NCBI GenBank assembly: GCA_016931965.1
Contig: JAFGDT010000079.1
Location: 124,001-188,000 of the forward strand
Length of the DNA stretch: 64,000 nucleotides
Direction of reading: 5' to 3'
Source of the DNA: a bacterium
GTDB lineage: Bacteria > Zhuqueibacterota > QNDG01 > DSAB01
The position numbers and the translations under genes are program-made. The notes below the pieces were generated by a model. It had not been told where the DNA came from. It saw nothing but the letters and a program-made list of their open reading frames with translations, and did no database searches. Shown here one piece after another: positions 374 through 12,922 of the stretch (the first letter of the stretch is position 1; each line of letters opens with the position of its first letter).

Positions 374-676
374 TCAGGACCCTTTCCAATACATTGCTTC
401 TATTTCTAAAAATTTTTGTGTTTCTTTTTTATTCATTACCGTCGTTTCTATCTTTACTTTGATTCCCAGTTTCTCTAAAGGTGCTTTTACGCTCATGATA
501 ATATACTCTTTTATCGGAATATTAGCAAAAGGAAATGCCAGGGTTACACTCACCTTATCACCTTTGATTGTTATGTCTTTGATTATTCCAAGGTCAGCAA
601 GGGTGCGATCGATGGCTGCATGCTTTATGTTTGTGATGATTTTACGAATTTTGTCTTCTGAAACCATTTTTGCCAT
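374..676 (-). CDS. DUF59/MIP18-family iron-sulfur assembly protein
   Basis: This 100-residue protein has the DUF59 layout: an N-terminal helical segment (MVSEDKIRKIITNIKHA) leading into DRTLADLGIIKDITI, then the strand KVSVTLAFPFANIP. Proteins of this family (SufT, PaaD, MIP18) help to load or mature Fe-S clusters. An AGGAG lies 10 nt before the chosen ATG; a second Met three codons later is possible. Its start overlaps the 3' end of the upstream MTH1187-type gene by 35 nt, and the Mrp-family gene follows 70 nt downstream, so the three are probably co-transcribed. The usual conserved Cys of DUF59 is not evident, so the function is inferred mainly from fold and context. Confidence 0.8.
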   Translation of the reverse strand: MAKMVSEDKIRKIITNIKHAAIDRTLADLGIIKDITIKGDKVSVTLAFPFANIPIKEYIIMSVKAPLEKLGIKVKIETTVMNKKETQKFLEIEAMYWKGS

Positions 677-980
677 TTGTTATTTTCTCCTCTACAGATT
701 GGATCTTACCGTTCATCGTCAAATTTTTATCGGTTCTGTCGTCAATTTTAATCGTGGTGACGACTCTTTTGACTTTATCGCAAAAAGCGGCATGGTGCAT
801 TTTGCCCGCAATTTCCAACAGTTTCTCTACGGTATCTGCCTCAACGATTGTGCCCATGGAAACCAATGTATATTTGATATTTTTTTCATTTTTCAATATT
901 CCTACAGCTTCTGCGACATATTGACTGACCGAGGGTGTTTGGGTTCCCAAGGGTATGATGCTGATTTCCATCAATGGCAT
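642..980 (-). CDS. MTH1187/YkoF-family thiamine-binding-like protein (DUF77)
   Basis: The first 95 residues fit the MTH1187 family: a beta-alpha-beta start (MEISIIPLG), SVSQYVAEAVGIL, the conserved YTLVSMGTIVEAD and late KRVVTTIKIDDR segments. Family members are small cytoplasmic ferredoxin-like-fold proteins reported to bind thiamine or related ligands; the physiological role is unclear. A strong GGAGG lies immediately before the ATG at 980. The last residues (about 97-112) are read from DNA that overlaps the start of the DUF59 gene and look non-conserved. Confidence 0.8.
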   Translation of the reverse strand: MPLMEISIIPLGTQTPSVSQYVAEAVGILKNEKNIKYTLVSMGTIVEADTVEKLLEIAGKMHHAAFCDKVKRVVTTIKIDDRTDKNLTMNGKIQSVEEKITNGKNGFRRQNS

Positions 981-1039
981 GAAATCCTCCCTTTTTCAAT
1001 TCAGAAAACACGACTTTTAAGATGTATTATACGCCTTTT

Positions 1040-1249
1040 TTAACCCAGAGGACAGGTTCCAGTCGGACAGCTTGAATCTGATCCTCTCGACTTTCCACTT
1101 CCCCCGGAAATACTGAATGGGGATAGGGATTTTTGAATATTTTTGCTGTTGCACTTTTTGCATTTCTGTTCTTCTGGTTGGGCGGTAACGCCCACCAACA
1201 GATCAAATTTCTCGCCGCATTCATTACAAATGTATGTGTAAATCGGCAT
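1040..1249 (-). CDS. FmdB-family zinc-ribbon protein
   Basis: This 69-residue protein begins MPIYTYICNECGEKFDLLVG and has a second CKKC pair, the CxxC-x(n)-CxxC zinc ribbon of the FmdB/putative regulatory family. The tail has two more Cys (SSCPTGTCPLG), a common C-terminal variation. The ATG at 1249 is preceded by an AAGGAGGAACC ribosome binding site. The exact role of the family is unknown; it often sits in operons for metal or C1 metabolism. A second FmdB-like gene lies at 7021-7275 in the same locus. Confidence 0.85.
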   Translation of the reverse strand: MPIYTYICNECGEKFDLLVGVTAQPEEQKCKKCNSKNIQKSLSPFSISGGSGKSRGSDSSCPTGTCPLG

Positions 1250-1274
1250 GGGGTTCCTCCTTGCTTAAAATAAA

Positions 1275-2075
1275 TTACATTTTTTTCAAACCAACATCCA
1301 GGCTTCCGTCAGGAAGCATCCAGTCCGGATGATCATGGCCTTGTTCTTCCATTTCGTACCGGACGCAACTTTCCCAATCGCCCCTGCAGTATAGTTCAAT
1401 CCATTTTCTTTCCAGGTGCCCCGCTTCGTAATACCATTTCATCGGACATAGAGGAAACCATTTGCAGTCATCCGAAAAGATCTGCAGTTTTTTGTATTTT
1501 TTCATTGTTTCAGATTCAAAAGAGGGATTGTAGAGAAGCGATGCTGGATGGGGCAGGGGAACAATTTTCTGGTTGTTTGCGATAATTGGTTTGCCGTAAA
1601 TATTTATAAAATCGGTTCGTGCTGGAGGAGGATCAGTGTGGTATTTTGTTAAAACATATCGTGTTGCATAATAACCTAAGGGTACGATCCATTCGGAATG
1701 AATGATCGCTATTTCTTCATCCAAAAATGGGCTGCAAGATTCTATTTCATCCATTTTCGGTCTGCGGTTTTTGGGCAGCATACATTTGATCAAATTGGTC
1801 ATATAAATCGATTTTCTGTCCATTCCAGATGCTTTAAGCAGTTTATCCAACATGTTACCAGAGGGGCCAATAAACATTCGATTTTCAGCATCTTCTTTTT
1901 CCCCAGGAGAAAGCGCAATGAGCATGAAACGCGCATCCAAATTGCCTTCGCCCATCAGTACATGCGTTCGGCTGGTTGAAAGCCTGCATTTTTCGCAATT
2001 CTTGATACGGAGATTAAAACTTACAATTGCATTCTCCTTTTTTGAAGTTGTATATGATTCAATTTGCTGTTCCAT
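1275..2075 (-). CDS. Family 4 uracil-DNA glycosylase with C-terminal Cys-rich extension
   Basis: This protein removes uracil from DNA in base-excision repair. The catalytic half (about residues 20-190) shows the 4Fe-4S cysteines CEKC near residue 27 and the pair in NLIKCMLPKNRRP...ESCSPFL, the family 4 active-site segment FIGPSGNMLDKLL, and the late LPHPASLL motif. The last 70 residues form a separate Cys-rich module (CPMKWYYE...LYCRGDWESC...HPDWMLPDGS) that I recall from UDGs of several anaerobic bacteria and which also occurs as a small stand-alone protein. Total length of 266 exceeds the usual 190-230 because of it. The start ATG at 2075 has no clear Shine-Dalgarno. Confidence 0.85.
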   Translation of the reverse strand: MEQQIESYTTSKKENAIVSFNLRIKNCEKCRLSTSRTHVLMGEGNLDARFMLIALSPGEKEDAENRMFIGPSGNMLDKLLKASGMDRKSIYMTNLIKCMLPKNRRPKMDEIESCSPFLDEEIAIIHSEWIVPLGYYATRYVLTKYHTDPPPARTDFINIYGKPIIANNQKIVPLPHPASLLYNPSFESETMKKYKKLQIFSDDCKWFPLCPMKWYYEAGHLERKWIELYCRGDWESCVRYEMEEQGHDHPDWMLPDGSLDVGLKKM

Positions 2076-2101
2076 ATTCTTGAAATTGGATGTCTCTGTC
2101 C

Positions 2102-2452
2102 TTAAACAGGTTTGCCAAATTCCCGATCCAATATCTCAACGATTTGATCCCTGGTTTGAATACTGGTGGTTGCAGCAACGACCTTTTCCTTTTTGAAATA
2201 GACGGTAAATGGCAAACCCATAAAATTGGCACATTCTGGCAGATTTTTAATAAAGGTTGCAACAGGAATATCAAAGTCCATGTCTCTAAAGGCAACATGA
2301 GTATATTGTGATTGTAATGATTCCATTTCGAAATATACAGGAATGCACATGGGGCCCATGCGACCACAGCAAATCACGACGTTCTCGTTTTTTTCAAGCA
2401 CCTCTTTCATTTCTGATTGATTTTCCAAATGTTTCAAACGGGTTGTGAGCAT
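2102..2452 (-). CDS. Thioredoxin-fold protein with CCGRMGPMC active site
   Basis: The 116-residue sequence follows a thioredoxin topology: an N-terminal helix, a strand ending in VVICCGRMGPMCIPVYFEM, a VAFRDMDFD strand, then GLPFTVYFKKEKVV with the cis-proline loop. The redox site is not CxxC; the cysteines are spaced C-x6-C (plus an extra Cys), a variant I associate with thioredoxin-like proteins near NifX/Mrp loci in anaerobes. The ATG at 2452 has a good AAGGAG ribosome binding site. It may act as a redox or cluster-delivery partner of the metallocluster proteins encoded to the right, but that is inferred from context only. Confidence 0.75.
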   Translation of the reverse strand: MLTTRLKHLENQSEMKEVLEKNENVVICCGRMGPMCIPVYFEMESLQSQYTHVAFRDMDFDIPVATFIKNLPECANFMGLPFTVYFKKEKVVAATTSIQTRDQIVEILDREFGKPV

Positions 2453-2596
2453 GACGGGTCTCCTTTATTGGGTGTCGTTCTTAATCTTTAAGAAAGATGT
2501 TGTGTCGGTCGGTTTCATTGCTGTTTTTAAACTCATGGACATATTGAATGAATCTGTTTGAATTGTTTATGTTTGATGATCGTTCTGCTCTTTTGG

Positions 2597-3154
2597 TTAT
2601 GCTTTTCTGAAGTTCAGTATTGTTCCGAGTTCTAAATGATCATCGTGGATCAATTTGACTGTAAATGTTTTTTCTATCGAAAAACCGCTATTTAAAATCT
2701 CCTGTTTTATTTCGTCAATGCTGATGACATCCGTATGGGTTTCGAGATGCGTTGGATAGACCGAAATCAATCCGTGCTTTTTTGTTGTCCTGTGAACCTC
2801 GTTGTATAATTTTTTTCTGTTTTTTTTATTGCTTGTGTTTTCTTTGCCAACAAGGTGGATGACGTCGTAAAGCAACACCGTGTCCACAGAATCGTTTTCA
2901 AGACCCGTTGTCACATCTTTTGATTGTTTCATGATTCTTACATTGACCAGATCTTCCTTTTTCAATCTTTCGTTCAATTGATCCAACTTCTCTGAATTGA
3001 TATCTATAGCATATATCCTGCCTTTGTTTCCCACTATTTTTGCGGCGGGGATGGTGTAATTACCGCTTCCACAGCCAAAATCTAAAACGATTTGACCCGG
3101 CCTGATTCCCAGTTTCTTTAACAATTTCAGACCGAATTCATTTTTATTCAACAT
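2597..3154 (-). CDS. Class I SAM-dependent methyltransferase
   Basis: The protein shows a Rossmann-type SAM-binding start: VLDFGCGSGNYTIPAA (motif I, about residues 23-39), IYAIDINSEKLDQL (acidic motif II), and DTVLLYDVIHLV (post-motif). It is 185 residues long with no extra domain. It starts 3 nt after the stop of the upstream radical SAM gene, so the two are translationally linked. The substrate cannot be predicted; the fold resembles UbiE/ArsM-like small-molecule methyltransferases. Confidence 0.85.
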   Translation of the reverse strand: MLNKNEFGLKLLKKLGIRPGQIVLDFGCGSGNYTIPAAKIVGNKGRIYAIDINSEKLDQLNERLKKEDLVNVRIMKQSKDVTTGLENDSVDTVLLYDVIHLVGKENTSNKKNRKKLYNEVHRTTKKHGLISVYPTHLETHTDVISIDEIKQEILNSGFSIEKTFTVKLIHDDHLELGTILNFRKA

Positions 3155-3157
3155 GGA

Positions 3158-4168
3158 TCATTCCATTCGCAGTCCAAGGATATCATGATCTCTGGGAGCG
3201 TACAATTTTCTGGCATAAAATGTTTTTCCCTGAAACGTTTTTTTGACCATTATCCCCTTTTCGATCAATTGATCTATAACGGACCAGTTTGTTTCCGCCC
3301 TATTCAGAAGTTCAGAAACCGCCTCTTCCCGCATGGGATGAACCGCTGTGATACTTAAAAGATCTTTCTCCGCATATCCTGTAAATGCAAACGCGTTTCC
3401 TTCGTATCCGATGAGATACTCGACCGTGTGATTCTGGGCACTCATGATTTCGTATGCCCTTATCAGTGTGTCTTCATCGGGAGGCTGAACTTGTTTTTCA
3501 GCCGGCGGTCTGATGGGAATCGAGAGATAAGAGACGTTTGCCGGAATTCGCTGCATCCATTTGGCCAATGATCTGATTTGATTCTCGTTATCATTCAAAC
3601 CGCGGACCAGCATGGTTTCCGTAACCAGATTGCCTCTATAGTGTTTGGCGAATTCGACGATGCCATCTAAAATTGTCTGAAGTTCGAGAGATCGGTGAGG
3701 CCGGTTGATTTTGCGCCAAATTGCTTCATTGACCGAATCGATTTTCAGTGAAACCCAATCAGCTTTGTTTAAATATTCTTTGACCTGATCGTGCCAGATC
3801 AGGGAACTGTTTGTAATCACGGCGATTTTCTTGTCCGTTAGAGACCGAAGCCTCTCGATTTCCTCACCCAGATGGATGTCCAGTGTGGGCTCCCCGTCCG
3901 GAACGAAAGTCAGATAATCAATCGATTCTCCTGATTGATGAGCTGATTCCATTTTCTCAAAAACAGCCTCTCGAATTTTTTCTGGATCGTAGAAAGGTCT
4001 GAGTCTGGTTTCCATCTTTGGTGTAAGTCCCAGCTGGCAGTAGACACAAGAATAGGTGCATGCTTTTGGCGGAATGTTGTTGATTCCGAGACTCCGACCC
4101 AGCCGTCTGGACGGTACCGGACCAAAGGCGATCATCTGGAGTTTCATTTTTTTATTATCGTTACTCAT
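3158..4168 (-). CDS. Radical SAM protein, COG0731 (TYW1-like) group
   Basis: An N-terminal GPVPSRRLGRSLGINN leads into the radical SAM 4Fe-4S motif CTYSCVYC near residue 37-44. A DGEPTLD (GEPT-like) segment and VSLKIDSVNEAIWRKINRPH follow, typical of the COG0731 group of small radical SAM enzymes related to tRNA wybutosine synthesis enzymes. The C-terminal third (about 250-336) looks like a winged-helix segment (AVSELLNRAETNWSVIDQLIEKGIMVKK). The substrate is unknown. Members of this group are commonly encoded with NifX/Mrp-type ATPases in anaerobes, as here. A later Met at residue 8 is an alternative start. Confidence 0.8.
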   Translation of the reverse strand: MSNDNKKMKLQMIAFGPVPSRRLGRSLGINNIPPKACTYSCVYCQLGLTPKMETRLRPFYDPEKIREAVFEKMESAHQSGESIDYLTFVPDGEPTLDIHLGEEIERLRSLTDKKIAVITNSSLIWHDQVKEYLNKADWVSLKIDSVNEAIWRKINRPHRSLELQTILDGIVEFAKHYRGNLVTETMLVRGLNDNENQIRSLAKWMQRIPANVSYLSIPIRPPAEKQVQPPDEDTLIRAYEIMSAQNHTVEYLIGYEGNAFAFTGYAEKDLLSITAVHPMREEAVSELLNRAETNWSVIDQLIEKGIMVKKTFQGKTFYARKLYAPRDHDILGLRME

Positions 4169-4182
4169 TTTAAAACGGGTTC

Positions 4183-4530
4183 TTATTTGATCTTGTTTTG
4201 TTTGTTGACAAACACAATTTTTGGTTTCATTTGTTCTGTTTCAGAATCATCGATAAAAGCATAGGAAAGAATACACAGCTTATCTCCGATTTCACCCAGT
4301 CTGGCGGCCGGACCGTATAATGCAATTGTACCGGAATGGGATTCTTCTTCAATGATGTAAGTTTCGAACCGCTGGCCGTTGTTAAAATTCAGAACCTGCA
4401 CTTTTTCGCCTGCGATCATATCACTTTGTTTCAGAATCACCTTGTCGATACCAATGCTGCCGGAGTAATGAAGCTCCTTTTTCGTTAAAACGGCGTTCAT
4501 TATTTTTGATTTTAAAATGTGTCGAAGCAT
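4183..4530 (-). CDS. panD: Aspartate 1-decarboxylase
   Basis: PanD makes beta-alanine from aspartate for pantothenate and CoA synthesis. The sequence has MLRHILKSKIMNAVLTKKELHY followed by SGSIGID; the family self-cleaves between the Gly and Ser here to give a pyruvoyl group. NNGQRFETYII and the later GPAARLGEIGDKLCILSYAF are also typical. I start at the ATG at 4530 because GAGGG lies 9-13 nt upstream and the family begins here; an ATG nine codons earlier is unlikely. The 115-residue length is normal. No other pantothenate gene is nearby. Confidence 0.93.
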   Translation of the reverse strand: MLRHILKSKIMNAVLTKKELHYSGSIGIDKVILKQSDMIAGEKVQVLNFNNGQRFETYIIEEESHSGTIALYGPAARLGEIGDKLCILSYAFIDDSETEQMKPKIVFVNKQNKIK

Positions 4531-4566
4531 GTTGCTTTTTCCCTCACAATCTTCCAAGTTATATCA

Positions 4567-5178
4567 TTAAACATGATTAAATTTAATAAGATCAAAGTGA
4601 ACTCTGGGTACGCCCACCACAAGGCGATCTCTACTAATTTTTGCATATTTCCGTGAATCCACACAACCGAAAGAAAACGTGATTCTGTTTTCTAAAAGTG
4701 TTTTTACAGCGATTCCACCACAAACGGACATCATGCTGGATAGGGAAACATCTAAATGATGACCAGTTTTGCTGTGATAGAGGTTGATTAAATCCATCAC
4801 ATCTTCTGGCATTAACCGAGCCATAATGAGATCCGGTTCCCCCTCCATATTCAATCCAATGTATTCGAAAGAATCTTGAAAACGTGGCATTTGAGGAAGC
4901 ATAGATTGGATGATCTCCTCGGAAAGCTCGGTTTTCTCCCGGCAGTGTTCCAGAAGAAGGGATTGATTCTTCCATCCGAATGCATATTGTGCTCCGGGAC
5001 AGTTGATGCTTTCTTTATCCAGGATCACGGGATGTAATATGGCTTCCCGGGTGGCTTCACAGAATCGTACGCCTTGCAGTCTTTTCGCTGATTCGAGATC
5101 GGGCTTTTCTCTAAAAAATTTAATTTTTATCCATTGACTTTTTATATTGTCGGCAAACGTCCGATGTATGTTTTTCAT
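4567..5178 (-). CDS. DUF169 domain protein
   Basis: The 203-residue protein matches the DUF169 pattern: VRFCEATREAI near residue 37, ESINCPGAQYAFGW near 57-70, EYIGLNMEGEPDLIMARLMPEDVMDLINLYH, and the SMMSVCGGIAVKTLLENRITFSFGCVDSRKY segment. Several conserved cysteines suggest a metal or cofactor site, but no biochemical role is established. AGAGG precedes the ATG at 5178. It ends 36 nt before panD. An imperfect palindrome lies just upstream of the start, so it may head its own transcript. Confidence 0.85.
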   Translation of the reverse strand: MKNIHRTFADNIKSQWIKIKFFREKPDLESAKRLQGVRFCEATREAILHPVILDKESINCPGAQYAFGWKNQSLLLEHCREKTELSEEIIQSMLPQMPRFQDSFEYIGLNMEGEPDLIMARLMPEDVMDLINLYHSKTGHHLDVSLSSMMSVCGGIAVKTLLENRITFSFGCVDSRKYAKISRDRLVVGVPRVHFDLIKFNHV

Positions 5179-5561: not shown

Positions 5562-5936
5562 TCAATTTCCTCCTTTTATTCCGAAATGGGATTCTACATT
5601 TGGTCCTTCAGCAGCCGTTAAATTGCCTTCTTTGTACTTTTCGATGACCTCTTGAACCGTTCCCGAAACCCCGGTGATTACCTCGATGCCGGCAGCGCGT
5701 AAAGTCTGATAGGCATTGGGACCGGCATTCCCTGTAAGCACCGCTTTGACTTCTTTTTCGGCCATCAATTGTCCCGACTGCACGCCGGCACCGCCTGCGG
5801 CTTGGACCTGGGCGTTATCGATCGATTCAAATTTCATGGTTTCCGTATCCACTAAGATGAAATAGGCGCATCGCCCGAATCTCGGATCCACCTGCGAATC
5901 GAGTGTATTGCCCTGTGAAGTGATGCATATTTTCAT
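5562..5936 (-). CDS. NifX/NifB-family dinitrogenase iron-molybdenum cluster-binding protein
   Basis: A single NifX/ORP-fold domain of 124 residues: MKICITSQGNTLDSQVDPRFGR at the start, CAYFILVDTET, then GAGVQSGQLMAEKEVKAVLTGNAGPNAYQTLRAAGIEVITG. Relatives bind FeMo-co precursors or, in the Orange Protein, a Mo/Cu-S cluster. There are no nitrogenase structural genes in the window, so a role in nitrogenase maturation is not implied. A strong GGAGG precedes the ATG at 5936. It is the second of two adjacent paralogues in the operon. Confidence 0.92.
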   Translation of the reverse strand: MKICITSQGNTLDSQVDPRFGRCAYFILVDTETMKFESIDNAQVQAAGGAGVQSGQLMAEKEVKAVLTGNAGPNAYQTLRAAGIEVITGVSGTVQEVIEKYKEGNLTAAEGPNVESHFGIKGGN

Positions 5937-5948
5937 GATTTTCCTCCT

Positions 5949-6344
5949 TTATATTTCCTGTTCATTTTCTTCGTGATCGCATTCGGTCTTATCGATGCCG
6001 TATCCTTTCCCAAGTCCCGGCTTGCAGAGGGATTCGCCTCCTTCAAGAGTTCCGTTCAGGATGAGGCTGATGACCTCCTCAATTTTTCCCGTGACTCCCA
6101 CAATCGGTTGAATGCCGAATTGATCGAAAAGCCCCGCAGCACGTCCTCCCATACCGCCTGCAATTATACACTCCACACCCATGTCATGGAAAAATTGCGG
6201 CAGATATCCCGGATGATGGCCGGGATTTTGAATCTCTTCGCCTTTAATCACTTTCCCATCTTGGATCTCCAAAACTGTAAAAGTTGGGCATCGCCCGAAA
6301 TGGGCGGAAACCTGTTTGCCATCGGTAGAGATAGCTATTTTCAT
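5949..6344 (-). CDS. NifX/NifB-family iron-molybdenum cluster-binding protein, second paralogue
   Basis: The first 105 residues form the NifX-like domain: MKIAISTDGKQVSAHFGRCPTF, EEIQNPGHHPGYLPQFFHDMGVECIIAGGMGGRAAGLFDQFGIQPIVGVTG. The IxNPGHxPG stretch is the usual form in stand-alone NifX-like proteins of anaerobes. A charged tail with a Cys and two His-rich-like residues (KTECDHEENEQEI) follows. AAAGGAG precedes the ATG. It lies 12 nt upstream of its paralogue at 5562-5936, suggesting a pair of cluster carriers, possibly forming a heterodimer (inference). Confidence 0.92.
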   Translation of the reverse strand: MKIAISTDGKQVSAHFGRCPTFTVLEIQDGKVIKGEEIQNPGHHPGYLPQFFHDMGVECIIAGGMGGRAAGLFDQFGIQPIVGVTGKIEEVISLILNGTLEGGESLCKPGLGKGYGIDKTECDHEENEQEI

Positions 6345-6467: not shown

Positions 6468-6923
6468 TCACACAATTAGATTAATGGCGCCGACCGGGCA
6501 TTCGGATACGCAAATTCCGCATCCTGTGCATTTTGATTGATCAATCTGCATGGTGTTATTTTTCGGGGTAATAGCCCTTCGGGGACAGATCGATGCACAT
6601 CGTCCGCAACCGGTACAGAGAGTGTCGTCAATACGTGCAAAGAGTGATCTTGGATTTTGCTCTATTTCCCGGATTCGTCTGTTGATCTCTTCGAGTTGTG
6701 ATTGGACTGACTCTGCTCTGTGCTTCAGTTGGGTTAGTTCATCCGATGGATGCAGATTTTCAATTGGCGATTGGTTGGACACGCTCCGGTCCGCTTTATG
6801 TTGGGTCTGGACCCACGACTTCATCCATCCAAACAGGTCTCTGCCCATTGTTGCATTTTGGCCTCTTCCGGTTATCATCCCCCTTCGCCTGCCAAAACCA
6901 CCCTGTCCTCGTCCTCCGGGCAT
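6468..6923 (-). CDS. DUF5320-like Gly-rich N-terminus fused to a 2x[4Fe-4S] ferredoxin
   Basis: Residues 1-30 are Gly/Arg-rich (MPGGRGQGGFGRRRG), related to the DUF5320 N-terminus. Residues about 63-90 are a predicted coiled coil (ELTQLKHRAESVQSQLEEI). Residues 98-151 carry two ferredoxin motifs, CTGCGRCASICP and CTGCGICVSECP, each able to hold a [4Fe-4S] cluster. The AAGGAG before the ATG is strong. A cytoplasmic electron carrier tied to the NifX-like proteins downstream is the simplest idea. The fusion links the otherwise mysterious Gly-rich module physically to Fe-S electron transfer. Confidence 0.88.
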   Translation of the reverse strand: MPGGRGQGGFGRRRGMITGRGQNATMGRDLFGWMKSWVQTQHKADRSVSNQSPIENLHPSDELTQLKHRAESVQSQLEEINRRIREIEQNPRSLFARIDDTLCTGCGRCASICPRRAITPKNNTMQIDQSKCTGCGICVSECPVGAINLIV

Positions 6924-7020: not shown

Positions 7021-7275
7021 TTATTTCCCGCAGCATCGTTTTGGATCTGAGCAAGGATTGGTCAAACCGCAGCAGGAGTCGGGATTTTGAGTCGTTTTTT
7101 TATAGTCTGTGGCATAAAAACCAGATCCCTTGAATATCACACCGGCTCCGCCTGTAATCAATCTTCTCACTTGGCCAGAACATTCTGGACAAACTTGAAC
7201 TGGTTTGTCGGTCATTTTTTGTGAGCGCGTAAAGTGATGCCCGCACGACGTACACTCATATTCATAGGTCGGCAT
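7021..7275 (-). CDS. FmdB-family zinc-ribbon protein
   Basis: MPTYEYECTSCGHHFTRSQK with a second CPEC pair and the family hallmark GVIFKGSGFYATDYKK identify a full FmdB-type protein of 84 residues. It ends in a second Cys-rich patch (DSCCGLTNPCSDPKRCCGK), which may bind another metal ion. AGGAGG lies before the ATG. It sits between the ferredoxin fusion and the DUF5320 genes; a 15-bp hairpin lies just upstream. Confidence 0.88.
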   Translation of the reverse strand: MPTYEYECTSCGHHFTRSQKMTDKPVQVCPECSGQVRRLITGGAGVIFKGSGFYATDYKKTTQNPDSCCGLTNPCSDPKRCCGK

Positions 7276-7341: not shown

Positions 7342-7689
7342 TTATTTAGATCCTTTCTTGGCTTCGGTTTCCAGTTCGGTAAGACGTTTCTGGATTTGTT
7401 CCAATTGATCTTCTAAAGACTTTGCCTGATTCCGGAGAAGTTCAGTCTCCTCTTCAGGTGTGTAGGATGGTCCGTATGGGACGGCTCCGTAAGGTGCAAT
7501 CCCGTAGGGTGCCGGGGGAAGATAACCCCAGCGTCGCCATCCAAAACCCCGTCCTCTACCGAAACCTCCACCGAATCTTCCACCGTAGGGATTCATGAAT
7601 CCCGGTACCGGGTAACCGGCACAGTAACCGGCCGCCCTTCCTGTCATTGGACCCATTCCTGCAGGTCCTGTTCCATCTCCTCTTGGCAT
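7342..7689 (-). CDS. DUF5320 Gly-rich protein with C-terminal coiled coil
   Basis: The 115-residue protein begins MPRGDGTGPAGMGPMTGRA, followed by AGYCAGYPVPG, then a Gly/Phe/Arg/Tyr/Pro-rich tract, and a C-terminal heptad-like helix (about 80-112: EETELLRNQAKSLEDQLEQI). The single conserved Cys in the AGYCAGYP box is a plausible ligand. GGAGG precedes the ATG. The N-terminal 27 residues are almost identical to those of the next gene upstream (7734-8003), so the two arose by duplication. No function is known for the family. Confidence 0.88.
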   Translation of the reverse strand: MPRGDGTGPAGMGPMTGRAAGYCAGYPVPGFMNPYGGRFGGGFGRGRGFGWRRWGYLPPAPYGIAPYGAVPYGPSYTPEEETELLRNQAKSLEDQLEQIQKRLTELETEAKKGSK

Positions 7690-7733: not shown

Positions 7734-8003
7734 TTACCAGCACCATCTTCTTCGACCACCACCACGGCTGCGACCGAATCCAAAAAACCTTCTGCTACCC
7801 CAAAATGGCACGGGATAAGGGGGATAAGCATTCCATCCTGTATAAGGTCCAGCAGACCAAGCCATTGGATAAGGGGTTGTCCAGTATGGCCAGCCGCCGT
7901 ATGGATTCATATACCCCGGCATTGGATAGCCGGCACAGTAGCCGGCCGCCCTTCCTGTCATTGGACCCATTCCCGCGGGTCCTGTTCCGTCTCCTCTTGG
8001 CAT
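7734..8003 (-). CDS. DUF5320 Gly-rich protein, duplicate copy
   Basis: This 89-residue copy has the same MPRGDGTGPAGMGPMTGRA and AGYCAGYPMPGYMNPYGG box as its neighbour, but the rest is Trp/Tyr/Pro-rich (GGWPYWTTPYPMAWSAG) and it lacks the C-terminal coiled coil, ending in GGGRRRWCW. Its ATG and GGAGG ribosome binding site lie inside the 3' end of the NifU-like gene, a 46-nt overlap implying translational coupling. The function is unknown. Confidence 0.85.
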   Translation of the reverse strand: MPRGDGTGPAGMGPMTGRAAGYCAGYPMPGYMNPYGGWPYWTTPYPMAWSAGPYTGWNAYPPYPVPFWGSRRFFGFGRSRGGGRRRWCW

Positions 8004-8449
8004 TGTGAACCTCCTTTTTTTATGGTTACAACTTGAATATCATCCAATGCTTTTTGAAGGGCCTGGATGGCCAAAACTGCGCAATGCATATGAGAAACAG
8101 GCAGACCATCCAGAAAAAATAGAATGTCCTGTGGCGTTATTTTTGATGCCTCATATGGTGTTTTGCCTTTTACCATCTCTGTGACTGCACAACCACATGC
8201 GACGCCGGTGCCGCACCCTTCAGAAAGAAAAGTTGCGTTTGAAATTATCCCTTTCTTGAGTTTTATCCAAATCATCAATTCATCACCACAATTACCTTTG
8301 ACATGTCCCTTACCGTCGGGACTCGTCATTTCTCCAATATTGACAGGTTCATAGGCATAGGTCAGCACTTTGTCAGAATAGGGCTCTGAACTCTCGCCCA
8401 TCAGATAATTTTGAACGTTTTGAAATATTTTTTCAATTTCATTTTTCAT
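7958..8449 (-). CDS. NifU-like iron-sulfur cluster scaffold protein
   Basis: The core (residues about 35-140) is a NifU/IscU-type domain: GHVKGNCGDELMIWIKLKKG, NATFLSEGCGTGVACGCAVTEMVKGK, and HMHCAVLAIQALQKAL. The three scaffold cysteines are visible as GNCGD, EGCGT and MHCA. The fold assembles [2Fe-2S] or [4Fe-4S] clusters for transfer. The last 15 residues are read out of phase from the start of the DUF5320 gene and may be a non-conserved tail. No Shine-Dalgarno is obvious at the ATG at 8449. Co-location with two Mrp-like ATPases suggests scaffold and carriers in one pathway. Confidence 0.88.
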   Translation of the reverse strand: MKNEIEKIFQNVQNYLMGESSEPYSDKVLTYAYEPVNIGEMTSPDGKGHVKGNCGDELMIWIKLKKGIISNATFLSEGCGTGVACGCAVTEMVKGKTPYEASKITPQDILFFLDGLPVSHMHCAVLAIQALQKALDDIQVVTIKKGGSQCQEETEQDPREWVQ

Positions 8450-8481: not shown

Positions 8482-8835
8482 TTACCAACCGTGTCTTCGT
8501 CCTCTCCCGTGATGTCGAAATCCCTGTCCAGGCATGAAGTCGGGGTGCAGGGTCACTTCGCCCCCTTCGATTTGTATCGCTTTTCCGTGAACCAAAGCAT
8601 CGGCCACCTTGCGTCTGGCCTCTTCCACAATGCGTCCGAAAGTCGCTCTTGATACATTCATTTGATCGGCTGCCTCTTCCTGACTAAGACCTTCTAAATC
8701 GGCAAGTTTCAAGGCTTCCAGTTCATCCACTTCAAGACGGACTTGACTGAGAAAACGAAGCGGGACACCCTGGGGTTTGAAATAGGAAACGCCAGGATGA
8801 CCACTGATCCATCGAAGTTTTTTAGGGCGCGGCAT
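8482..8835 (-). CDS. DUF134-family DNA-binding protein (probable regulator of the locus)
   Basis: MPRPKKLRWISGHPGVSYFKPQGVPL opens the family; VRLEVDELEALKLADLEGLSQEEAADQMNVSRATFGRIVEEAR is a sigma-70 region 4-like helix-turn-helix (residues about 35-75). The tail is Gly/Arg/His-rich with several His (GFRHHGRGRRHGW), which may bind metal. DUF134 genes are regularly found next to NifX/Mrp clusters. As the only DNA-binding protein in the operon it is the best candidate to bind the palindrome at 10624-10651 (inference). AGGAG precedes the ATG. Confidence 0.9.
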   Translation of the reverse strand: MPRPKKLRWISGHPGVSYFKPQGVPLRFLSQVRLEVDELEALKLADLEGLSQEEAADQMNVSRATFGRIVEEARRKVADALVHGKAIQIEGGEVTLHPDFMPGQGFRHHGRGRRHGW

Positions 8836-8842
8836 ATGTCTC

Positions 8843-9712
8843 CTATTGATTTGAATACAATCTGTTGTGAATTTGATGACTGATCGATTGAATTTCTTGG
8901 GTTACGGGTCCGTTGTCGACCTCCACCACAGGATTCCCTTCTACCATGGCTTTTGTAACGATTCTATCGTAGGGAATTCGACCCAGAACTTCAATGTTGC
9001 AATTTTTACATACGGATTCAATCTGTTGACTCATTTCCCGATTTAAATCCGCTTTGTTGATAATAACAGAACTCGAGATTTGAAAATGACTTGTCAGACC
9101 CAGTACCCGTTCCATATCATGAATCCCCGAAACAGTCGGTTCCGTAACGATCACGACCAGAGAAGCCCCGGTTATGGAACTGATGACCGGACAGCCGATA
9201 CCCGGAGAGCCATCGATCAAAATGAGATCCAGCCCCTTTTTTTCAGCCAGTTGTTTTGCTTCTTTTCTGATCAGGGTGACCAATTTGCCTGAATTTGCCT
9301 CGGCAATGCCCAGTCTGGCGTGTACCATCGGTCCGAATCGTGTTTCAGAGAGATACCATTCTCCGCAGTGACGATCCTCGAGTCGGATGGCTCCAGTCGG
9401 ACAAAAAAATGCACAGGTGCCGCACCCTTCACAGTCGATTTTACTGACACTGAAATCATTCCGGATGGCATTAAATTCACAGACTTCGATACACTTTTTG
9501 CATTCATTACAGAGATTCATATCGATATTTGGGAGTTTGCCGCTATAAAAGGGGTTCGTTTGTTTGGTCAATGGCTGCATGAGAAGATGCAAATCTGCCG
9601 CATCCACGTCACAATCTGCAATGATCGTATTCTTCCAAAGCGCTGCCAACGACGCTGTGATGGTGGTTTTTCCGGTTCCTCCTTTTCCGCTGATGATGAC
9701 GATCTCTTTCAT
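8843..9712 (-). CDS. MinD-superfamily ATPase with inserted ferredoxin domain
   Basis: Residues 1-20 hold the deviant Walker A GKGGTGKTT; TIIADCDVDAADLHLL follows. An inserted dicluster ferredoxin (about 65-115) has CNECKKCIEVCEFNAI and CEGCGTCAFFCPTGAI. The switch LILIDGSPGIGCPVISSITGA and VVIVTEPTVSGIHDMERVL complete the P-loop fold. The same architecture occurs as the paired ATPases of Orange Protein loci of sulfate reducers. Its ATG overlaps the stop of the upstream paralogue by 4 nt (ATGA), so the pair is coupled and probably forms a heterodimer. Confidence 0.92.
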   Translation of the reverse strand: MKEIVIISGKGGTGKTTITASLAALWKNTIIADCDVDAADLHLLMQPLTKQTNPFYSGKLPNIDMNLCNECKKCIEVCEFNAIRNDFSVSKIDCEGCGTCAFFCPTGAIRLEDRHCGEWYLSETRFGPMVHARLGIAEANSGKLVTLIRKEAKQLAEKKGLDLILIDGSPGIGCPVISSITGASLVVIVTEPTVSGIHDMERVLGLTSHFQISSSVIINKADLNREMSQQIESVCKNCNIEVLGRIPYDRIVTKAMVEGNPVVEVDNGPVTQEIQSISHQIHNRLYSNQ

Positions 9713-10593
9713 GCAATCACCTTGGCGCTTGACGCTATTGTTTGATGGATTTTATTCATCAAATTCTGGAATTTGTTTTTATATTCAGGCTTTAAATCGA
9801 TCATCAATTTTCCTATGGCATACCCTTCTGCGATTTCACGCTCATCGGGGATCTCTAAGAGAATGGGGATATTTTCCTTATGACAGTAATGCCAGACCTG
9901 CCGGTCTCCGGTCGTTGAACGGTTAACGATAATGCCGAATGGTATTTCCAGTATCCTGACCATACCGACGGCCAGTTTCAAATCGTGCAATCCGAATGGT
10001 GTCGGTTCTGTCACCAGAACAACAAAATCAACATTCTTAATCGCTTCGATCACGGGGCACGATGTGCCGGGCGGTGCATCGATGATGGATAAATCCGACA
10101 CCTTTTTTGACAAGCCAGCTTTTTTGACTGCTTGAATCAAAGGTGGTGCCATCGCCTCGCCAATCTTCAGTGTGCCATAAATGCAGCGTACGGATTCAGA
10201 AAATCCCATCGATACAGTGCCGATTGCTTTCTTGTCGTCTTCAATGGCTTCCACCGGACAGATGCGTTTGCAACCCAGACAGCTGTGGCAGAGTTCGGGG
10301 AAAACGAGCACTTTGTCTTTTATGGTAACAATTGCTCCAAACTGACAGAGCTCCGAACATTTTCCGCAGTGTGTGCATCTGTCCAAGTCAACGCGGGGGA
10401 TAAAGATATCGACCGGTTCTTCTTCTCTGATTTCCGGATTGAGAAACAGATGCGCATTGGGCTCTTCCACATCGCAATCCATCAGTGTGACTGTTTGGCC
10501 TGTGACAGTTTTGGCCAGATTTGTGGCCACTGTGGTTTTCCCTGTTCCCCCTTTCCCGCTTGCGATGGCGATTATGATCTTTTTAAATTCCAT
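9709..10593 (-). CDS. MinD-superfamily ATPase with inserted ferredoxin domain, promoter-proximal copy
   Basis: The first gene of the operon, 294 residues. Walker A GKGGTGKTTVATNLA lies near residue 15, MDCDVEEPNAHLFL near 38, and two cluster motifs, CTHCGKCSELCQFGAI and CHSCLGCKRICPVEAI, at about 72-118. LSIIDAPPGTSCPVIEAI and VVLVTEPTPFGLHDL follow. It differs from its downstream paralogue in lacking the shorter insert spacing, as usual for the two subunits in ORP-type loci. The palindromic operator and a near-consensus promoter lie 30-85 nt upstream. Confidence 0.92.
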   Translation of the reverse strand: MEFKKIIIAIASGKGGTGKTTVATNLAKTVTGQTVTLMDCDVEEPNAHLFLNPEIREEEPVDIFIPRVDLDRCTHCGKCSELCQFGAIVTIKDKVLVFPELCHSCLGCKRICPVEAIEDDKKAIGTVSMGFSESVRCIYGTLKIGEAMAPPLIQAVKKAGLSKKVSDLSIIDAPPGTSCPVIEAIKNVDFVVLVTEPTPFGLHDLKLAVGMVRILEIPFGIIVNRSTTGDRQVWHYCHKENIPILLEIPDEREIAEGYAIGKLMIDLKPEYKNKFQNLMNKIHQTIASSAKVIA

Positions 10594-10623: not shown

Positions 10624-10651
10624 TTAGTTATGAGCATATGCTCATAACTAA
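10624..10651. promoter_or_regulatory. Perfect 28-bp palindrome (operator) at the metallocluster operon promoter
   Basis: The two 14-nt arms, TTAGTTATGAGCAT and ATGCTCATAACTAA, are exact reverse complements with no spacer. It covers the expected transcription start and touches the -10 box of the minus-strand promoter, the classic place for a repressor site or a start-site regulator. DUF134 protein is the obvious candidate ligand. Confidence 0.85.
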
Positions 10652-10678
10652 TGTAATAAAAAAAGTGTCGCTTGTCAA
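10650..10678 (-). promoter_or_regulatory. Sigma-70-type promoter of the metallocluster operon
   Basis: On the minus strand a consensus -35 TTGACA (10673-10678) is followed after exactly 17 nt by TACATT (10650-10655). Transcription should start near 10643, inside the palindrome, leaving a leader of about 50 nt before the ATG at 10593. Confidence 0.75.
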
Positions 10679-10741: not shown

Positions 10742-12922
10742 TTATAGCATTCCCTTTCTTTTTCGAATCAGCCACTCTGAAGAAAGCAGGAGGATCATTA
10801 AAATGAGTGTTATGGGTAAGTTATACAGTTCGATCTCTTTTGTTGAGTGTACAATTTGAGGTGTCAATTGTATTGATTGAATAAATGAAGCCAGACTGTC
10901 CGGAGGGCCTGATTTTCCCCCCGTGACCCTTGATAAATTTTCCATCAGATTGGGATTGGCCGTTGTGATTTCGAATTCAGGATTGTAAGATGAGATAGAG
11001 AATTCCAGTTGATCCCTGCCCAAAATTTGTCCTTCAAGCAATGCTTCTCCAGCAATCGTATAGACACCGCTCTCGAACACCCGAAATGTTTCTCTATACC
11101 GGCCTCCGCCGATGTCATTGAGTTGAAATCTTTGCTGGTTTGAAGGAGCCTGCACATGGATTTCCACAATGGCCCTTTCGACTGGATAAAATGTCTCGTC
11201 ATAAATTTGGGCAGATAAGGTGATTTCTTCTCCGGCATGGAATATTTGCTTGTTTGTCGAAAGCTGTATACGTTTCTCATCCTCTTCCGTAACCAGCCAG
11301 CGCATCGCATTGCTGATAAATCCTGCCAATCCTTCATTCGATCCACCCATATTCCACATGATCAGATCCCACCTGTAAAAACTGTATCCCAGAAAGAGGA
11401 GTGATTTTTTCTCTCCGATGCTTTGTGCAAAGAGCATGGGGATTTCTTCATTCGAGGAGGAACCTATCGCACTTTCAGGAATACCAGTCATTAAAAGCTC
11501 GGAACCGCCTTTACCCACAAAATTTGACCAGCATGAATAAATGGGGGGCAGCTGTGTCCAAACTTGCAGATTGTCGTTCTGGTTGTCTTTAATTCTTAAA
11601 ACGGGATGGATTCTGCCTCTCATTGTGGGCTGTGGAAGAACACGCCTTTCGGTCACTTTTTGTGGAAGATAAATGGGAATGATTGATTCAAGCTCATTCC
11701 ATTTCTGGAAATCCACATTTTTGCCTGCCATCAGCAAAAAGGGCTTTTGGCTCTGTTGCAAAATGTCTTTCATGTTTATCCATGCGGAAACAGGGGTTGA
11801 TAAGTGGGGAAAATCCAGAAGAATAATTACATCGGTTGATTGAATTTCATTTTCAGGGGGAAATGATCCTTCGTAAAAATTGGCTTCTGATTTCCAGGTT
11901 CGGAATATAGGCAAGAGATCTGTATCATTCAGAAGAATACGTTTCAAGAAAGCCAGATCAGGACTGGGAGATCCCGCCAAAACAAGCACATTCAATTTAT
12001 TTTTAATAACCCGCACATAGAATTCTCTATGGTTGTTTTCGTCAGTGAATTCGTTTTCCAGTCTGGTAATATCGACAGCATACTTTTGAAATCCTGGATT
12101 TTGAGGAGTGAAATAAAGGAACTGTGAAATTTCGAAACCATCAGAGGGAACAATCAGTGATCGTTCGTCGATGATGTTTTCCTCCTTTCGAAGGCGTACG
12201 GTGATAGGTTCCCCGGCAAATCCGGGTCCCTTTATAAACACTTCAACCGGGATCCGGTTGCCCACATAAGTGACTTCATTGGATCTAACCTGCGTAATCT
12301 GCAGATCCTTTCTCTCCTGCTGGGTCCCCATTGTAATTGTATAGACGGGAAATTTTAATTCTTCACCTACACTGACAGGATTTTCTCCCGCATTGTGTCT
12401 GCCGTCACTCAAGAGAAAAAGAGCGGTCAAGCCTGTAGCATCCGTCAGATCATTGATCATTTTTAATGGCTGGGCCATATCTGTTGCAGAGCCATTGAAG
12501 GCTATCGAATCGGGAATCGATTCGAGTGTGATCACGTTGTCTGAAAAACAGTAGATCCGTAATGAGGCACTATCTTCAAGTTTTTTCAATGCAGGTGATC
12601 GGATCAGTTTTTGTAAATCTTGTCCCCGCGTTATTTTATCTTCAACAATGTTCATTGATTGAGATGTGTCTATCAGCACTCCAACAGTGGGTTTTTTGAC
12701 ATACTGTGTTGTCCATATGAGAACCGTCCCAAAAATAGCGGATAAACCCAAAAGGAGTGAACCGATTCGAAGAATGATGAGGATCAGACGGTATAAGCCA
12801 GAAACTGGCGGTATGGTGTAACGGTATATCCAGTAAGTGAACAGGAACATCGAGAGGACAGCCATGACAAAGAAGATGGGAGACCAGGTCAACGATAAGT
12901 CTATGTTGATAGGCTGAGTCAT
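10742..12922 (-). CDS. VWA-like membrane protein of unknown function
   Basis: A 726-residue membrane protein. Two N-terminal membrane segments (about 14-34 and 42-70) are followed by a VWA-like domain beginning GVLIDTSQSMN (residue 81), which keeps the DxSxS MIDAS pattern. TALFLLSDGRHNAGENPV is also VWA-like. A central region (about 310-470) resembles the glutamine-amidotransferase-like fold seen in similar proteins (LNVLVLAGSPSPDLAFLKRIL). A beta-rich domain and one C-terminal membrane segment (about 702-719) ending RKRKG complete it. Such proteins resemble the Bat/VWA-DUF families of Bacteroidetes and relatives; the job is unknown. It follows tsaD directly. Confidence 0.75.
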   Translation of the reverse strand: MTQPINIDLSLTWSPIFFVMAVLSMFLFTYWIYRYTIPPVSGLYRLILIILRIGSLLLGLSAIFGTVLIWTTQYVKKPTVGVLIDTSQSMNIVEDKITRGQDLQKLIRSPALKKLEDSASLRIYCFSDNVITLESIPDSIAFNGSATDMAQPLKMINDLTDATGLTALFLLSDGRHNAGENPVSVGEELKFPVYTITMGTQQERKDLQITQVRSNEVTYVGNRIPVEVFIKGPGFAGEPITVRLRKEENIIDERSLIVPSDGFEISQFLYFTPQNPGFQKYAVDITRLENEFTDENNHREFYVRVIKNKLNVLVLAGSPSPDLAFLKRILLNDTDLLPIFRTWKSEANFYEGSFPPENEIQSTDVIILLDFPHLSTPVSAWINMKDILQQSQKPFLLMAGKNVDFQKWNELESIIPIYLPQKVTERRVLPQPTMRGRIHPVLRIKDNQNDNLQVWTQLPPIYSCWSNFVGKGGSELLMTGIPESAIGSSSNEEIPMLFAQSIGEKKSLLFLGYSFYRWDLIMWNMGGSNEGLAGFISNAMRWLVTEEDEKRIQLSTNKQIFHAGEEITLSAQIYDETFYPVERAIVEIHVQAPSNQQRFQLNDIGGGRYRETFRVFESGVYTIAGEALLEGQILGRDQLEFSISSYNPEFEITTANPNLMENLSRVTGGKSGPPDSLASFIQSIQLTPQIVHSTKEIELYNLPITLILMILLLSSEWLIRKRKGML

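Follow-up and report, generated by a model that had tools for sequence, protein, structure and literature searches.

A palindrome at the promoter of an ORP-type metallocluster operon as the predicted operator of a DUF134 protein

The orp operons of D. vulgaris are driven by sigma-54 and controlled by the cognate regulator DVU2106 and IHF; DVU2106 binds to palindromic sites, and such a site overlaps the sigma-70 promoter from which DVU2106 itself is expressed, which creates a negative loop (PMC6345978, PMC3897727). In the window analyzed here, that is, the whole 64-kb stretch of bacterial DNA under study, an operon was found in which many genes of the ORP (orange protein) system known from D. 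vulgaris are present (PMC6345978). It satisfies the ORP criterion, having both the pair of MinD-like ATPases with two 4Fe-4S motifs and an orange-protein (NifX) gene. The MrpORP (Orp9) fusion is missing from this operon, in which the match of NifX to NF041136 is limited to the C-terminal part; an Mrp-type gene lies near the operons of relatives at two loci (L015 and L016).

The operon is preceded by a perfect palindrome, which we conclude is very likely (probability about 0.85) the operator of the DUF134 protein, the product of the third gene of that operon, with binding and repression being inferred in the absence of binding or expression data. What is new here is a predicted operator and regulon for DUF134, a family without a function in the literature searched. 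That the family is not known to have a defined operator, as the earlier note had said, held within this scope: in the open literature on DUF134/UPF0251/COG1342/PF02001, to which the search was confined (no subscription papers or regulon databases), neither an operator nor a regulon or function was found, and none of its relevant papers contains the motif string.

The palindrome, its promoter and the operon

The earlier note, made from the sequence alone, had described a perfect 28-bp palindrome without spacer that touches the −10 of a TTGACA-17-TACATT promoter, and had named the DUF134 protein as the only helix-turn-helix (HTH) protein of the operon. All three claims held, the first being refined to a conserved inner 20 bp, the second as a 2-nt overlap, and the third by a Pfam scan of the operon products. 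The existence of the site is shown: its two 14-nt arms (10624-10637 and 10638-10651) are 100% complementary, while the longest arm in 20 shuffles was 7-10 nt and the next-longest spacerless palindrome of the window has an arm of 8 nt. Across relatives, conservation is confined to the inner 20 bp and does not include the 4 outermost bp of either arm (TTAG/CTAA). The features of the locus are as follows.

10624-10651, no strand: perfect palindrome TTAGTTATGAGCAT/ATGCTCATAACTAA, from arm comparison, unique in the genome
10628-10647, no strand: conserved DUF134 operator (predicted), 20 bp, TTATGAGCATATGCTCATAA, core and TT/AA flanks kept across phyla
10673-10678, minus: −35 hexamer TTGACA, recurring in relatives 35 nt before the palindrome centre
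10650-10655, minus: −10 hexamer TACATT after a 17-nt spacer, its last 2 nt overlapped by the palindrome
9709-10593, minus: first gene of the operon, MinD/NBP35-like ATPase with two 4Fe-4S motifs, Orp3/Orp4-like (Pfam ParA/CbiA, Fer4)
8843-9712, minus: second MinD/NBP35-like ATPase with 4Fe-4S motifs (Pfam CbiA, Fer4)
8482-8835, minus: DUF134 protein, proposed autoregulator, sigma-region-4-like HTH with recognition-helix Arg68 (PF02001, E=1.5e-26)
7958-8449, minus: NifU_N/IscU-like scaffold (PF01592)
7734-8003, minus: DUF5320 protein (PF17253)
7342-7689, minus: DUF5320 protein (PF17253)
7021-7275, minus: FmdB-type zinc-ribbon protein (PF09723)
6468-6923, minus: double 4Fe-4S ferredoxin (Fer4), with a DUF5320-like N-terminus (resemblance by eye)
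5949-6344, minus: NifX/orange-protein-type protein (PF02579), matching the MrpORP C-terminal domain (NF041136 positions 265-365)
5562-5936, minus: NifX/orange-protein-type protein (PF02579)
4567-5178, minus: DUF169 protein (PF02596), probable operon member on the same strand; a DUF169-CoaE fusion follows a site copy at locus L079

The promoter, with 10/12 consensus matches, points on the minus strand into the MinD/DUF134/NifU/NifX operon. Its score alone is no better than chance, with 1.1 expected from shuffling the region, so that its support comes from the recurrence of the arrangement in relatives. The transcription start, which is inferred, would fall within the palindrome. A search for further genome copies, suggested in the earlier note, found no other good one: with up to 3 mismatches allowed, the 3.54-Mb genome contains a single copy of the 20-bp core, and a looser degenerate 20-mer gave one further site at 2 mismatches (C5:48812) and low-level 3-mismatch matches. 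The C5 site, the next best in the genome, was rejected as a second operator, as it fronts no related operon.

Neither HTH_5 (ArsR) nor a sigma-54 activator was detected among the operon proteins in the Pfam scans. A small DUF5320-like frame precedes the DUF169 gene in operon order. After the operon, a same-strand run (374-4557, minus) encodes panD, radical SAM, methyltransferase, UDG, thiamine-binding (MTH1187) and FeS-assembly (PF01883) proteins, and its membership of the operon is uncertain; upstream of the operon, a 726-aa protein (10742-12922, minus) has no Pfam match.

Conservation of the site and its linkage to DUF134 genes

In the phylum of the window, DUF134 was detected above the cut-off in just 4 of 82 genomes, all of which carry the 16-bp core (three exact, one with one mismatch), whereas among the 78 genomes without DUF134 the exact core was found in none and a one-mismatch core in 6; a reversed control pattern gave zero matches in the phylum genomes. 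The site lies directly upstream of duf134 in two of the relatives (G005 and G009), and in the third (G004) it precedes the MinD pair, as it does in the window. The earlier note had named the lack of the palindrome before orthologous operons as a refutation of the pairing; this was run and did not refute it, conservation being found in the window's own phylum and in many others.

By scanning 84,980 species genomes for the central 16 bp ATGAGCATATGCTCAT, at least 116 matches were obtained. An iterated profile search found DUF134 in 64 of the 116 matched stretches, reading away from the site in 62. In 57 of these 62, the frame either spans the site or opens no more than 135 nt from it, and in the other five it opens 398-858 nt downstream, with distances measured to the opening of the frame and not to start codons. 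At a single locus (L053), a DUF134 start is visible near the site and the sequence itself is masked. The conservation and linkage so shown extend to DUF134-site pairs in at least 15 named phyla; the site was found in Chloroflexota, Ignavibacteriota, Omnitrophota, Thermodesulfobacteriota, Zixiibacteriota, Bacteroidota, Spirochaetota, Myxococcota, Verrucomicrobiota, Caldisericota, Sumerlaeota, Aminicenantota, Acidobacteriota, Bacillota, Planctomycetota, Bdellovibrionota and Kiritimatiellota.

Forty genomes with a site not beside DUF134 were tested, of which 18 have DUF134 elsewhere or further away and 22 have none above the cut-off. The unlinked sites of the 18 mostly precede NifX (L021, L044, L085, L104, L110), DUF5320 (L039, L077, L092, L109, L122), ferredoxin or MinD genes, including a ferredoxin-MinD pair (L117) and a PocR-domain protein before MinD (L082). 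The matches in the other 22 are partly chance occurrences in coding DNA and partly a Bacillales class of apparent operators for an ArsR regulator or for cation exporters nearby.

Several loci carry further features. Genes with ARMT1-like phosphatase domains (L020:3927-4982, L100:5174-6043), a DUF364/DUF4213 gene for putative heavy-metal chelation (L080:5518-6249) and the DUF169-CoaE fusion (L079:1862-3346) lie behind sites and are possible new regulon members. In two Dehalococcoidia-type loci (L077, L085), a Fur-like gene was seen by eye to be divergent from the NifX/DUF5320 side of the site. One genome (G909; L298, L335-L338) has five exact 20-bp operator copies, at least four of them about 80-95 nt from a contig end, which suggests that the operator possibly sits there at the edge of a repeated element.

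Starting instead from the gene, we examined 127 DUF134 loci obtained from Pfam PF02001 searches, and in the 300 nt upstream the motif was often found within 4 mismatches and the reversed control never. With a symmetric profile from whose training the tested group was left out, and with a threshold at the 1% shuffle level, sites within 300 nt were identified in 19/29 Thermodesulfobacteriota, 7/15 Chloroflexota, 12/21 of a trans set and 7/29 Bacillota loci. For Bacteroidota the count was 4/29 within 300 nt and 15/29 within 1.5 kb; in the window's own phylum it was 2/4, the other two carrying the site further upstream at the operon head. Only 1 of 127 downstream control stretches scored. As the loci were the best Pfam matches, these fractions are not family-wide frequencies, and in Bacillota and Bacteroidota many DUF134 genes lack a recognisable site in this 300-nt range. 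The family itself is common and conserved in bacteria and archaea: in one Bacillota group, 135 of 200 sampled genomes have it above the cut-off, and it is present in control archaea too. Symmetric covariation between the arms showed a weak excess only (e.g. 6 vs 2.5 expected at arm position 5), too weak to be kept as evidence for a dimer, and was dropped.

The position of the site at promoters was also shown. Upstream of the DUF134-adjacent sites and the window site, exact TTGACA was found 32 times, compared with 1.1 in shuffles (maximum 4), and the distance from its end to the palindrome centre clusters at 10-12 nt and 33-38 nt, with 35 nt in the window. The shorter class places the site in the −35/−10 spacer and the longer class over −10/+1.

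The DUF134 protein and residue 68

The window DUF134 scored 93.2 bits against a PF02001 gathering cut-off of 27, and its MPRP start and SRxTFxRIL recognition helix are those conserved in the family; Pfam also detected Sigma70_r4_2 in it. An AlphaFold2 model (pLDDT 82, pTM 0.71) predicted a recognition helix at residues 63-83 and a disordered tail at 101-117. With Foldseek, the HTH matched sigma region 4 structures, among them region 4 of sigma-E on −35 DNA (2h27), and the DNA-binding domain of DeoR on its operator (7bhy), at an rmsd of 0.7-1.0 over 39-51 columns and with E-values of only about 0.07-0.1; no solved DUF134 structure was found. The C-termini of site-adjacent DUF134s vary, showing CxxC pairs (zinc-ribbon-like), Cys/His/Arg-rich tails or a complete NifX domain. 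Fusion to a complete NifX (Nitro_FeMo-Co) domain was identified by Pfam at three loci (L114:2288-3013, L118:3732-4466, L128:4393-5226), by eye at two more (L046, L047), and in part at another (L109).

Residue 68 (window numbering) is Arg in 122, Asn in 4 and Ala in 1 of the 127 gene-first DUF134s, and the operators of all four Asn68 proteins carry T/T, not G/G, at arm position 3. A motif-first search for the T/T operator in 395 genomes, with 2 mismatches allowed, gave 33 distinct intact DUF134s directly downstream, in which T/T sites went with Asn68 in 9/9 cases and other sites with Arg68 in 24/24. In the combined set, likewise of 127 proteins, all 10 Asn68 proteins have T/T sites and none of the 117 Arg68 proteins does. 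This covariation is shown as a pattern. About 60 Arg68 proteins of the combined set had been picked for an exact site, and in the tree the change of residue and operator occurred only twice, once on supported branches. Because of this biased Arg68 sampling and the one or two evolutionary events, we regard the covariation as a strong lead and not as independent statistical proof. A stricter rule, by which Arg68 proteins would always have G at arm position 3 of one or both half-sites, was rejected, since two Arg68 proteins (L325, L326) have T/A sites without that G; only the link between T/T and Asn68 stands.

Alternative readings, proposed mechanism and known systems

That the DUF134 protein and the palindrome form a protein-site pair, as the earlier note had proposed, is supported by the linkage and the residue-68 covariation, with direct binding being inferred; its further claim that a bound protein would block or shape initiation fits the promoter position, the choice between repression and activation again being inferred. 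Activation by DUF134, e.g. by contacting polymerase or remodelling the promoter, could be argued from the sites of the spacer class, which lie where MerR-type activators act, and from the window −10, which is only TACATT. We consider it unlikely, as in the other class, to which the window belongs, the site lies over −10/+1, a position from which activators seldom work, the near-consensus −35 and 17-nt spacing suggest promoters needing no help, and one protein working from both positions fits occlusion best. The palindrome might instead act in RNA as a terminator or leader hairpin, perfect inverted repeats being able to form hairpins. Against this, neither a T-run nor a terminator-like site was found, the tested leader folds no better than shuffles, the copies of other species that sit in the −35/−10 spacer are untranscribed, and the predicted start inside the palindrome means that a transcript would carry only part of it; the spacer copies and the leader without unusual folding point to a DNA site, and this explanation appears very improbable. 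Chance, for which the single genome copy might speak, is practically ruled out by the 14-nt arm set against the shuffles and by conservation across phyla at DUF134 promoters.

A different regulator, such as a metal sensor of the ArsR/SmtB family, might bind the palindrome with DUF134 as a mere passenger, and in Bacillales (L054, L062, L112, L123) the identical 16-bp core does stand before genes for ArsR proteins and cation-diffusion exporters. However, the ArsR-type flanks are AT, whereas the DUF134-adjacent flanks are mostly TT or TA (TT/AA in the window); those Bacillales genomes have no DUF134 above the cut-off; the window operon contains no ArsR gene; the exact site is absent from the 78 DUF134-less genomes of the phylum; and the operator variation tracks a DUF134 residue. 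We therefore hold this rival to be highly unlikely.

At the four Bacillales loci and two more (L125, L135), all in genomes without DUF134, the core with mostly AT flanks is an apparent ArsR-family operator, in several cases beside cation-diffusion exporters. It is likely, as an inference from sequence alone, that one core is used convergently by two unrelated regulator families, DUF134 and ArsR. In two Bacillaceae loci with neither DUF134 nor an adjacent ArsR gene (L060, L094), the core fronts a flavoprotein monooxygenase-like gene, and the palindrome arm of the latter is 22 nt.

In the preferred reading, autorepression by DUF134, a dimer (inferred) would read the two inverted half-sites TTATGAGCAT via its sigma-region-4-like HTH, with Arg68 probably recognising the G of ATG. 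Since the site covers the −10/start here and the −35/−10 spacer elsewhere, binding would most simply block RNA polymerase, so that DUF134 would repress its own ORP-type Fe-S/metallocluster operon; occlusion is inferred as the simplest mechanism common to both positions, with activation not excluded. In some other bacteria DUF134 may also act on unlinked NifX, DUF5320, ferredoxin and MinD promoters. The variable C-termini, including the NifX fusions, and the ORP-type regulon suggest by inference metallocluster or metal sensing: release would probably be set by metallocluster or metal status, with the variable C-terminus or a partner NifX protein as the sensor. That the ligand is a metallocluster is possible and no more than a guess. 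A bolder reading, which we regard as slightly more likely to fail than to hold, is that the widespread DUF134 family consists of stand-alone, sigma-region-4-like repressors whose signal is the assembly state of an orange-protein/NifX metallocluster. They would detect it directly in the NifX fusions and via a partner in other cases, and through one 20-bp operator code shared by at least 15 phyla would govern a conserved anaerobic metallocluster regulon. The operator, the predicted contact residue Arg68 and the target list make DUF134 a testable regulator, and they offer a way into the orange-protein/NifX metallocluster system of anaerobes, which is poorly understood.

Among known systems, DeoR (7bhy) and sigma-E region 4 (2h27) resemble the DUF134 HTH, yet DUF134 is neither a full-length DeoR homologue nor a sigma factor, and its palindrome and flanking domains differ from theirs. 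The ArsR/SmtB operators of Bacillales share the 16-bp core ATGAGCATATGCTCAT at an autoregulated metal-linked promoter, and differ from the DUF134 case in their AT flanks and unrelated winged-helix protein. With the orp operons of D. vulgaris, the window operon has in common the paired Orp3/Orp4-type Fe-S MinD-like ATPases and the NifX/orange-protein proteins; unlike them, it has a sigma-70-type promoter with a palindrome and the local regulator DUF134, without sigma-54/DVU2106-type control. The orange-protein regulation studied so far (Desulfovibrio, sigma-54) is apparently not the general rule.
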